DNA of 54,054 nt. It comes from Candidatus Gastranaerophilales bacterium. Its GTDB lineage: Bacteria; Cyanobacteriota; Vampirovibrionia; Gastranaerophilales; Gastranaerophilaceae. Position numbers and translations under genes: made by a program. The notes under the pieces are model-generated. The model searched no databases. It worked only from the letters and a program-made list of their open reading frames with translations, and was not told the origin of the DNA. This document shows positions 41,511 through 54,054 of this stretch, piece by piece (the stretch's first letter is position 1; each line of letters begins with the position of its first letter). Location: positions 1 to 54,054 of the forward strand of contig CANPZB010000004.1 in the NCBI GenBank assembly GCA_947588755.1. Direction: 5' to 3'.

Positions 41511-42160
41511 CCACCATGTCATCCTGAACTTGTTTCAGGATCTTACCGCCGTCACCTAGTTCAGCATCTTAAATCAACATTAGCCACGAAAATTGTGTAT
41601 GTCTCCCACCATGTCATCCTGCCATCCCTACCATGTCATCCTGAACTTGTTTCAGGATCTTACCGCCGTCACCTAGTTTCAGTATCTTTTGTATTAAGCC
41701 CCCTGAACACCAACATGTCATCCTGAACTTGTTTCAGGATCTTACCCCCGTCGCATAGTTTCAGTGTCTTTTACATACAGCATTGATACGGGCAGGTTTT
41801 AAGCCATGTAAGACTTGATAAGGCTAAGATGCTGAAATAAATTCAGCATGACATGGCGGGGGGAAGACATGGAAAGACATGACAGAATTTTCGTGTTCTT
41901 GTTATCATTTTTGTCAGAATAAAACCATAACATGTCATCCTGAACTCGTTTCAGGATCTTATCCCCGTCACATAGTATCAGTATTTTAAATCAACATTAG
42001 CCACGAAAATTCTAAGATACTGAAATAAATTCAGCATGACAGAATTTTCGTGGCATTCTCGTCTGTTTGTGACAAACAATACACTACCCCATGCCATCCT
42101 GAACACCCACCATGTCATCCTGAACTTGTTTCAGGATCTTGTTTCGTGACCTAGTTTCAG
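41511..42160 (+). repeat. Left arm of the palindromic repeat array
   Basis: The unit of about 90-110 bp is CATGTC, then the core ATCCTGAA-N5-TTCAGGAT, then a CTTACC...GTCACCTAGTTTC stretch, then AGTATCTTAAATCAACATTAG and a CACGAAAATT motif. Loops are CTTGT or CTCGT. The variant ATGCTGAA-N5-TTCAGCAT keeps pairing by changes on both arms. Confidence 0.9.
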
Positions 42161-42189
42161 TATCTTAAATCGTGATTTATGAACTTCTA

Positions 42190-42198
42190 TGATAAAAT
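42190..42198 (+). promoter_or_regulatory. Extended -10 promoter of the GIY-YIG gene, probably leaderless
   Basis: TGA-TAAAAT ends 6 nt before the ATG at 42205; no Shine-Dalgarno is present. Confidence 0.5.
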
Positions 42199-42204
42199 AC
42201 ATAT

Positions 42205-42492
42205 ATGAACAAAGATTATGCAGTTTACATATTGACTAATTACCAACAAACAACTTTTTATATAGGTGTCACAAGCGATTTACAGAAAAGAATTTGGGAA
42301 CATAAAAACAAAGTAGTAGAAGGATTTACCCAAAAATATAACGTTGACAGACTTGTATATTATGAAATAACAGGTGATATAGAAGCTGCGTTAAACAGAG
42401 AAAAACAATTAAAACGCTGGCACAGAGATTGGAAAATTAATTTAATAAAAGAAACAAATCCGGAATTTAACGACTTATCTCTTGAGTGGTGA
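42205..42492 (+). CDS. Solo GIY-YIG endonuclease at the centre of a repeat array
   Basis: The 95-residue single-domain protein has DYAVYILTN (GIY-like strand), FYIGVTSDLQKRIWEHKN (YIG at 19-21, Arg29, His33) and NREKQLKRW with Glu66 as the likely catalytic metal ligand. This is the UPF0213-type solo GIY-YIG family. The frame is intact with the expected catalytic residues. Palindromic repeats on its left mostly face one way and those on its right face the other. This recalls RAYT transposase genes flanked by REP sequences, and suggests that the nuclease acts on, or was carried with, these repeats. The association is seen; the mechanism is inferred. Confidence 0.9.
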   Translation: MNKDYAVYILTNYQQTTFYIGVTSDLQKRIWEHKNKVVEGFTQKYNVDRLVYYEITGDIEAALNREKQLKRWHRDWKINLIKETNPEFNDLSLEW

Positions 42493-42499
42493 ACAAGAT

Positions 42500-43090
42500 A
42501 CTGAACGAATGCAACGGGGGTAAGATCCTGAAACAAGTTCAGGATGACATGGTGGGGAGTTCAGGGGTGGCATGGGACGAGGGCATTGTTTGTCATAGAG
42601 GAACAAAATGCCGCGAAAATTCTGTCATGCTGAATTTATTTCAGTATCTTAGAATTTTCGCGGCTAATGTTGATTTAAGATACTAAACGAATGCAACGAG
42701 GGTAAGATCCTGAAACAAGTTCAGGATGACATGGGGAGAGTTCAGGGGTGACATGGGGAGAGTTCAGGGGTGACATGGTGGTGGAACATACAGAATTTTC
42801 GCGGCTAATGTTGATTTAAGATACTGAACGAATGCAACGAGGGTAAGATCCTGAAACAAGTTCAGGATGACATGGGGGTGGGACATACACAATTTTCGCG
42901 GCTAATGTTGATTTAAGGTACTGATGCTAGGCAACGGGGGTAAGATCCTGAAACGAGTTCAGGATGACATGAGGGGTGATATATGAATTTTCGCGGCTAA
43001 TGTTGATTTAAAATACTGAAACTAGGTGACGGGGGTAAGATCCTGAAACGAGTTCAGGATGACATGGGGGAGGTTCAGCATGACATGGGG
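42500..43090 (-). repeat. Right arm of the palindromic repeat array (inverted relative to left arm)
   Basis: Cores start at 42525, 42707, 42848, 42945 and 43040 as ATCCTGAA-ACAAG or ACGAG-TTCAGGAT, followed by GACATG. These are reverse complements of the left-arm units, including the TAATGTTGATTTAAG and AATTTTCGCGGC parts. A variant copy at 42627 mirrors the one at 42017 on the other side. Confidence 0.92.
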
Positions 43091-52546: not shown

Positions 52547-53476
52547 CTACCAAGGATAATCGTCTTTTATTTCCCAGCCGTCATTCATTATTAATGCTCC
52601 GCAGTTATACCTATCATTTTTGGCTATATTTTTATTACACCCGTAAGAATTGTCATTTTTAATATCATCACGTTTTACATCTTCACTGCATCTCCAACAA
52701 AATAAATTCAAAAATTTATGATGGTCTTTATAAATAGTATAAAAAATGTCATGCTGAGAATAATCACGTGAAGCATCCCAGTAAACTTTTGTATTTTTAT
52801 TGTTACTTGCAAGTATGTAAATAGTTGTAGGTGTATAAATACCATTCGTTGAATCGCCATCAGTGAAAAAAGATAAAGTTGTCCCGTTACTTAACACTAT
52901 ATGATAACCTAGACTTTTATAACCAATATCTTCAGCCACTTTTAAATACGGTTTAAAATAGGTATTAACAATATACGTTAAATCTTCTTTTGAACCCGTA
53001 GAAACTTCATCACTGGTTGCACCGTAACTCCATTCCGCAGGTGTACCGTTGGCAGCTATGGATGAAGTCAATGCATTGGATAAAATTGCATAAGTTTGCT
53101 TAACTTTGGTCGCAAAAACTTTCTTTTGATATTTAGCAATTAATGTTGGCATAGTCATTGCTGCGACAACGCCAATAATCCCGAGGGTGATTAGAACCTC
53201 TGCCAGAGTGAAGGCGGATTTACGTGAAAAGTGGGAAGGTGAAAGGTGAGAAGTGAGGGTATCTTTGGGTGAAAGGTGAAAAGTGAAAGGTGAAAAGACC
53301 TTATCGGCACTTCGTGCAAGATAATTGGCTGGATTGCTTCGCATTCGCTCGCAATGACCGTACACCTCCATGTCACCCTGAACGACCATGTCATCCTGAA
53401 CTTGTTTCAGGATCTTGGCATTTTTGCGTCTCACTATATTTTTAAAAATCGTCACGTTTTTAATTTCTTTTTTCAT
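52547..53476 (-). CDS. Prepilin-type protein, copy 3, with repeat-derived 88-residue leader
   Basis: The 309-residue protein has the motif A-FTLAEVLITLGIIGVVAAMTMP after Ala88. Prepilin leaders are usually 6-25 residues; this one is extended by translated repeats. Residues 21-30 (KILKQVQDDM) come from the ATCCTGAA palindrome. CERMRSNPANYLARSADK comes from a TGCTTCGCATTCGCTCGCAATGA-type repeat. SPFTFHLSPKDTLTSHLSPSHFS comes from GTGAAAGG-type sequence. AAGGA lies 7 nt before the ATG, so the long leader is probably translated. The C-terminal NDGWEIKDDYPW matches copy 1. Whether the long leader still permits export is unknown. Confidence 0.85.
   Translation of the reverse strand: MKKEIKNVTIFKNIVRRKNAKILKQVQDDMVVQGDMEVYGHCERMRSNPANYLARSADKVFSPFTFHLSPKDTLTSHLSPSHFSRKSAFTLAEVLITLGIIGVVAAMTMPTLIAKYQKKVFATKVKQTYAILSNALTSSIAANGTPAEWSYGATSDEVSTGSKEDLTYIVNTYFKPYLKVAEDIGYKSLGYHIVLSNGTTLSFFTDGDSTNGIYTPTTIYILASNNKNTKVYWDASRDYSQHDIFYTIYKDHHKFLNLFCWRCSEDVKRDDIKNDNSYGCNKNIAKNDRYNCGALIMNDGWEIKDDYPW
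53212..53300 (-). repeat. GTGAAAGG-type degenerate simple repeat inside prepilin copy 3
   Basis: Irregular short repeats of GTGAAAGGTGAAAA type (plus-strand reading) encode a Ser/Pro/His/Phe-rich part of the leader. A similar sequence lies just downstream of prepilin copy 1 at about 1240-1258. Confidence 0.75.
53393..53413 (+). repeat. ATCCTGAA palindromic repeat inside the prepilin leader
   Basis: The core ATCCTGAA-CTTGT-TTCAGGAT lies within the coding sequence of prepilin copy 3 and is read as ILKQVQD on the minus strand. Confidence 0.95.
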
Positions 53477-54054
53477 TTTTAGTTCCTTTCTTTTTTTTTA
53501 TTTATTACTGTTTATTGTTATTCTAAATAATTCCATGTCTCCCTGAATTCATTTCAGGGTCTTATTTATTCGGTATTGGTACATAATCCTGAAACGTCTT
53601 GGATTTGCATCAATGCGTGCAGGAGTTTGTTATTCACAATAGTTGTGGACATTGACTTTGGTTTACTTTCTTTACTATTTAAAGACTTTATAAGGCTAAG
53701 ATCCTGAAACAAGTTCAGGATGACATGATTTTTCAGGATGACATGGGCGTTCAGGGGATTTCGTGCAATTAAGATACTGAACCAATGCCACGAAATAAGA
53801 TGCTGAAACGAGTTCAGCATGACATCATGGTTCAGGATGACAGAACGAAAATCCAAATTTTCGGGGCTTGTCAAAAAATAAAAAAATAGCCAGAGCCTTT
53901 GGTATGAGCGGTTTACCCCCCCCCGTTTGTGTGACTTTATACATCACATGTAAGTTTTTCCCGCTATTTTCCGTTATCATATAATATTCTTATACCCTAT
54001 TTTTTCGTTTTATAAACATGATTATATACTTTTCTTAACTTTTGTCAAGAAATT
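53477..54054. other. Repeat-bearing right end without a supported gene
   Basis: Copies of the palindromic family lie at 53541 (CCCTGAA-N5-TTCAGGG), 53701 (ATCCTGAA-ACAAG) and 53800 (ATGCTGAA-ACGAG-TTCAGCAT), plus truncated pieces. A nine-base C run (53916-53924) follows. The last 35 bases contain a strong minus-strand promoter. A 102-residue open frame at 53566-53874 only reads through repeats. Confidence 0.8.
54021..54048 (-). promoter_or_regulatory. Strong minus-strand promoter at the right edge
   Basis: TTGACA (54048-54043) and TATAAT (54026-54021), both perfect, are separated by 16 bp. The transcript would run leftward through the poly-C/G tract and the repeats toward prepilin copy 3, giving a long repeat-containing leader. 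Confidence 0.7.

Follow-up and report, generated by a model that had tools for sequence, protein, structure and literature searches.

The prepilin genes of Candidatus Gastranaerophilales appear to form a phase-variable repertoire, in which the cleaved leader bears the switch and accepts any in-frame sequence. We give this reading, in which the switching itself is deduced from the DNA, a probability of about 0.7. The Gastranaerophilales are common gut bacteria, mostly uncultured, and non-photosynthetic relatives of the cyanobacteria. Slippage in a G or C homopolymer, situated just 3' of a promoter and a start codon, would gate many of their prepilin genes; G/C runs of such length slip. Where a gene consists of a single open reading frame (ORF), tract length would gate the pilin directly. 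Prepilin peptidase, which removes leaders at the cytoplasmic side (PMC4471445), is expected to cut off everything 5' of the phenylalanine (F) at the mature N-terminus. Because everything before F would be removed, the sequence from tract to F need only be open, and may thus become a mosaic of repeats. The split genes of the genome studied here consist of promoter, tract, repeat-built upstream frame, second start, repeat-built leader and pilin. In these the tract would gate translation of the upstream frame, and hence the pilin, by coupling or by relief of transcriptional polarity.

The stretch of DNA analysed (the window; 54,054 nucleotides) is contig C4, one of the 89 contigs of a 1.83-Mb genome, G000, whose contigs are designated by C-numbers below. 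A profile search of this genome (89 contigs, 1.83 Mb) returned 104 matches to PF07963 (N_methyl), and whole-genome searches found prepilin peptidase (PF06750) encoded once, at C2:70115, and a single gene for a PF00482 (PilC/GspF-type) membrane protein, at C45. Long mosaic leaders are present in most of the 99 parsed prepilin copies. In at least 71 of the approximately 104 prepilin genes the leader measures 28-174+ residues and contains shared repeat modules, and the longest leader, in the tract-to-F ORF of C35, reaches 277 residues. The residue before F (position -1) is Ala in 71, Gly in 27 and Ser in 1 of the 99 copies. Bacterial type IV prepilin leaders are described as 6-26 residues long with Gly invariably last (PMC4471445), a description from which the window prepilin, with 88 residues and Ala at -1, departs. 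Short-leader prepilins are also present, one in the window (26017) and others elsewhere in the genome.

The features of the window gene are as follows, in the order in which they are read.

54021..54048, minus strand: sigma-70 consensus promoter TTGACA-N16-TATAAT, 12/12 consensus positions
53916..53924, minus strand: G9 homopolymer (sense strand), candidate contingency (slippage) tract
53566..53913, minus strand: repeat-built upstream open frame of 115 codons after the tract, stop 89 nt 5' of the prepilin ATG
53703..53720, minus strand: palindrome P (CCTGAAAC..GTTCAGG) within the upstream open frame
53542..53559, minus strand: palindrome P in the untranslated spacer 5' of the prepilin ribosome-binding site
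53484..53488, minus strand: Shine-Dalgarno core AAGGA of the prepilin ORF
53476..52547, minus strand: prepilin ORF, start ATG 53476, Shine-Dalgarno core AAGGA at 7-nt spacing
53213..53476, minus strand: composite prepilin leader, 88 residues
53417..53476, minus strand: start module MKKEIKNVTIFKNIVRRKNA, common to >50 prepilins
53387..53416, minus strand: palindrome P module, KILKQVQDDM (ATCCTGAA palindrome)
53369-53386, minus strand: VVQGDM, between the P module and the B1 module
53300..53368, minus strand: B1 module EVYGHCERMRSNPANYLARSADK (GCTTCGCATTCGCTCGCAATGA element, GCTTCGC-type)
53213..53299, minus strand: C module VFSPFTFHLSPKDTLTSHLSPSHFSRKSA (GTGAAAGG-type repeat)
52547..53212, minus strand: predicted mature prepilin with FTLAEV start; PF07963 above cut-off, DUF6613 below

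The mature part opens with FTLAEVLITLGIIG, F being at 53212, and combines an N_methyl motif with Glu5 (PF07963 above cut-off) and a hydrophobic helix. An earlier note on this DNA had described an 88-residue leader at 53212-53476, behind a good Shine-Dalgarno, and had regarded it as a composite of repeats which all stay in frame into FTLAEV. That observation is correct, coordinates included, and is much more general than described. The note overlooked two features that change the meaning of the leader, the G9 run and the open frame upstream of the prepilin. After the G9 tract the other two frames shut after 0 and 29 codons. The tract is not in frame with the prepilin; the frame that follows it is a separate one and has its stop 89 nt 5' of the prepilin ATG. 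The start preceding the tract has a weak Shine-Dalgarno, while the prepilin ORF has a good one of its own behind an AT-rich spacer, so that pilin could be made at any tract length; the weakest step of our proposal is the action of the tract on this particular gene. A stable RNA structure masking the prepilin start was considered and rejected, as the spacer folds weakly apart from one palindrome hairpin and folding of the upstream region does not exceed that of shuffled sequences (z = -0.9). A phosphatidyltransferase gene is a neighbour in the window; its closest named sequences, at 77-79% identity, include MAGs of Candidatus Gastranaerophilales.

The simplest form of the putative switch occurs in relatives. 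All 26 runs of at least eight G or C in three family-level relatives (293 kb) are located shortly 5' of a prepilin F. There an ATG and about 10 codons are followed by G8-14 or C8-11, and then by 7-173 leader residues and FTLAEV, and only one tract length in three puts start codon and pilin in one frame. Pooling the relatives and named loci gave 63 prepilins with a tract in an open leader; in 60 of them an ATG with a Shine-Dalgarno lies 18-48 nt 5' of the tract and reads into it stop-free. Eleven of these 60 are ON and 49 OFF, the ON fraction lying below the expected one third, if the tract lengths of the assemblies are taken at face value; metagenome assemblies do not give homopolymer lengths reliably, a warning likewise found in PMC9187656. 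One relative has two prepilins 870 bp apart with G12 and G10, respectively, and identical sequence after the tract. In one relative the leader is built of different interspersed repeats. Across wider sampling, a G8+ tract 12-42 nt before FTLAEVLIT was found in 36/117 genomes of the order and 37/244 of the phylum, all of them belonging to the window's family, and a reversed-pattern control gave 0 matches.

The genome of the window contains 31 prepilins with a tract. Three of these (C23, C35, C43) have a single ORF from tract to F, so the homopolymer is seen directly between start codon and gene body, and the 277-residue leader of C35 is currently in frame. In 24 of the other 28 an upstream frame of 52-173 codons stops 35-122 nt before the second ATG, and three of the four remaining genes have an orphan leader ORF intervening. 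Tracts accompany long leaders (29/45 long-leader vs 0/11 short-leader genes, p = 9e-5), and paralogues with equal flanks but unequal tracts were seen. A promoter matching at least 10/12 positions is located 71-115 nt before the tract in 21/21 testable tracts, against 4/21 in the shuffled control, and altogether a promoter precedes the tract in 23/29 tract genes. Two other modes of action were rejected. For a further promoter, downstream of the tract and ahead of the prepilin ATG, there is no candidate, with none at ≥10/12 in the 29 genes scanned; and a tract acting as a promoter-spacing switch is rejected because the -10 box ends 71-115 nt before it. Further tracts were observed outside the prepilins, namely a G13 in frame inside the ORF of a 581-residue membrane protein (G000 C1:16751, L124), which is possibly another contingency locus, and a G10 inside a Pro/Glu-rich ORF of 450 residues (G000 C3:11179, L133).

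For the split genes we also have to consider that tract and upstream frame are relics, left behind when a start module that brought a ribosome-binding site along spread and released the genes from phase variation. The good Shine-Dalgarno at the second start and the unstructured AT-rich spacer are what this explanation predicts, and orphan leader pieces upstream of some genes and stops in the C18 leader agree with it. Against it, the upstream frame of 24/28 genes is still free of stops, over very different lengths (52-173 codons), and comes as close as 35-122 nt to the second start; reversed 114-bp elements within the upstream frames lack stops in the frame used; and the sole promoter precedes the tract. 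We consider the relic explanation rather unlikely. Pilin-less orphan leaders which stop after about 80 residues are present at G000 C68:4619, C20:30418 and C11:34000.

The distribution of the repeat modules provides insight into their origin. Besides those of the window gene, the leaders contain GWFRCGFGALAPDK, SRIIRVVAGVTSRSTSRVGFAIAHTAPYRKFG (D) and FTLAEGATHVARQHNKRRAA (E, with a second FTLAE word), as well as QRICTRTERSEFVQVSKTTLLRTVHNPRH within E. In a 432-kb sample of the genome, B1, D, E, C and the start modules are nearly restricted to prepilin leaders and occur in a single orientation, whereas P is found in leaders and also in upstream and intergenic DNA. The loop of P harbours a 114-bp element. 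A genome-wide query, with 40 of 128 candidates scored, agrees on the confinement of the modules and shows that this element also occurs elsewhere than in leaders, in either orientation; within leaders it always has the stop-free orientation, in two phases. The comparison used paralogues within the genome in place of orthologues from sister strains. Since most modules are almost leader-only and keep one orientation, they are shared by descent or recombination among the approximately 100 paralogues, and probably spread in the main along with the gene family, as its members duplicated or recombined. The P palindrome and the 114-bp element alone look like interspersed elements.

This bears on the proposal of the earlier note that the leader is a tolerant landing site. 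In its full form, independent mobile palindromes inserted into the cleaved leader and only in-frame insertions survived. The part that stands concerns P and the 114-bp element, which are interspersed: P also forms intergenic arrays (window 41.5-43.1 kb) and lies in upstream regions, and the element within its loop takes both orientations outside leaders but the stop-free orientation, in two phases, inside. It does not extend to B1, D, E, C and the start modules, which keep one phase and one orientation and are almost absent outside leaders, though insertions there should be better tolerated. An IS200/Y1 (RAYT-type) transposase (PF01797) was not found in a profile search of the genome, and such a transposase as the source of the palindromes was therefore rejected. 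As a general account of the mosaic, independent insertion is unlikely. Ten P palindromes occur at 41515-43066 of the window, in two inverted arrays around a 95-residue GIY-YIG ORF (42205-42489; PF01541 above cut-off), which is a candidate mobiliser of P; the genome has three GIY-YIG genes, and the palindrome array surrounds only that of the window (0 and 1 palindromes near the others).

Coming back to the phase-variable reading, the leaders are kept open while their peptide drifts. The 71 leaders with 28 residues or more (5,628 codons) have 0 stops in the pilin frame, and 376 and 423 in the other sense frames, both of which contain stops in every leader; the copies are related by descent, so that these stop counts, like the frame and tract counts, are not independent draws. 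When start modules were sought in any frame, 55 of the 57 nearest ones were in frame and open to FTLAE. The two exceptions are C18, with stops in its leader, and the frame-shifted copy C42:362, in which the shift lies between leader and FTLAEV and the mature pilin is likewise broken. This sole shifted copy, on a pilin that is itself broken, is consistent with a translated leader. The leaders are relaxed as protein, as a removed sequence should be: three repeat modules gave pN/pS values of 0.94, 1.48 and 0.90, and the 20 residues at the mature N-terminus gave 0.06. The start module is not diagnostic as proof of translation, its pN/pS being 0.37 in frame 0 and 0.37 in frame +1 too. At 94-99% DNA identity the 114-bp element is translated as PSWICSTLTEF... 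or RLGFAPRSQSF... depending on the gene, and an extra base at its left junction is compensated by one fewer at the right junction. We interpret this combination of a kept frame with a relaxed protein sequence as that expected for a stretch which is translated and then removed.

An untranslated long leader, with the true start beside FTLAEV and the open frame incidental, is by contrast very improbable. Some relatives do retain a Shine-Dalgarno ATG six codons before F (MKKIFG), and short-leader prepilins occur in the window and the genome. Most long leaders, that of the window included, nevertheless lack a Shine-Dalgarno ATG within about 25 codons of F, and an incidental frame would be difficult to reconcile with the stop counts and with a sole frameshifted leader that belongs to a broken pilin. 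The leader of the window gene is very probably translated from ATG 53476. Variants at the leader-pilin boundary were also observed. About ten genes (e.g. G000 C16:32907) have a second FTLAE word directly 5' of the real cleavage motif, possibly a decoy or a duplicated signal. Four prepilin-like genes (G000 C35:19402, C23:2714, C13:293, C57:260) have a divergent mature start, FTLAEMMVVMLILSIVMAAFAPVM, with leaders of about 97 to 277 residues, and two of them read from the G tract directly into F.

That collapsed or chimeric repeats of a short-read metagenome and poly-G sequencing error produced the pattern is scarcely credible, for although the assembly breaks at prepilin genes and many copies lie at contig ends, the layout is identical in many other assemblies, including named ones of other studies, the tracts keep a constant position after a start codon and are G or C on the sense strand, and the frames are coherent.

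If the phase-variable reading is true, around 100 prepilins served by one secretion machine, many of them apparently switchable, would give each population a very large set of surface filaments. It would also account for annotations of these genes as fragmented or mis-started, and would provide a natural case of sequence which is obligatorily translated but free of meaning, with a frame open for up to 277 codons in which the amino acids drift. The chances seem to us even that this is one of the largest known phase-variable pilin repertoires, with prepilin genes numbering in the tens in a 2-Mb genome, each with its own G/C tract, mostly OFF and with a cleaved leader carrying the switch, and that in the window's genome the switch has shifted to a separate, repeat-built upstream frame, acting through coupling or polarity, with leaders exchanged as modules. 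A literature search, which covered a minority of the subscription journals, found no paper joining Gastranaerophilales or Melainabacteria to phase variation.

The closest parallel is with the sortase-dependent pili of Bifidobacterium (PMC9187656), likewise of a gut commensal, where an intragenic G10-G12 lies near the start of the pilus gene and decides by its length whether a short first ORF is joined with the pilus protein; a polar effect on what lies downstream was proposed for this tract (PMC9187656). Bifidobacterium, however, has 1-2 sortase pilus clusters per genome, without prepilin leader or repeat mosaic, and the group studied here has dozens of type IV prepilins with a tract each. Neisseria pilC (G/C run) and opa (CTTCT repeats) similarly have the tract inside the frame of multi-copy pilus or surface genes (PMC5953494). 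Neisseria differs in its Sec signal peptides of normal length, in having 2 pilC and about 4-12 opa genes, and in that the pilin itself varies mainly through recombination with silent pilS copies.

The pilC and opa tracts lie in the signal-peptide region, and there too a removed leader carries the switch. Rickettsia palindromic elements (PMC10969869), to which the earlier note had likened the repeats, are also read in frame within coding sequence. The parallel is one of form only, since those elements measure about 150 bp and entered many unrelated genes, whereas the Gastranaerophilales modules are limited to the removable leader of one family and its upstream frame; in the 432 kb sampled they were seen in leaders, upstream frames or intergenic DNA, and in none of the unrelated genes. 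REP elements with RAYT transposases share the short palindromes in intergenic arrays, but here a GIY-YIG ORF lies between inverted palindrome arrays and no Y1 transposase is present. With other type IV prepilins (PMC4471445) the genes have in common the FTLAEV motif with Glu5, the hydrophobic helix and a prepilin peptidase in the genome, and they depart from the typical Gly-ending leaders of 6-26 residues in their length, which reaches 277 residues, and in the Ala that most often precedes F. In principle, switching by slippage is known both for pilus genes and for leaders that are removed, and palindromic elements read in frame are known as well. What is new is the scale, a prepilin leader that carries the putative switch, the construction of leaders as long as 277 residues from repeats, and the split form, in which the upstream frame is open.
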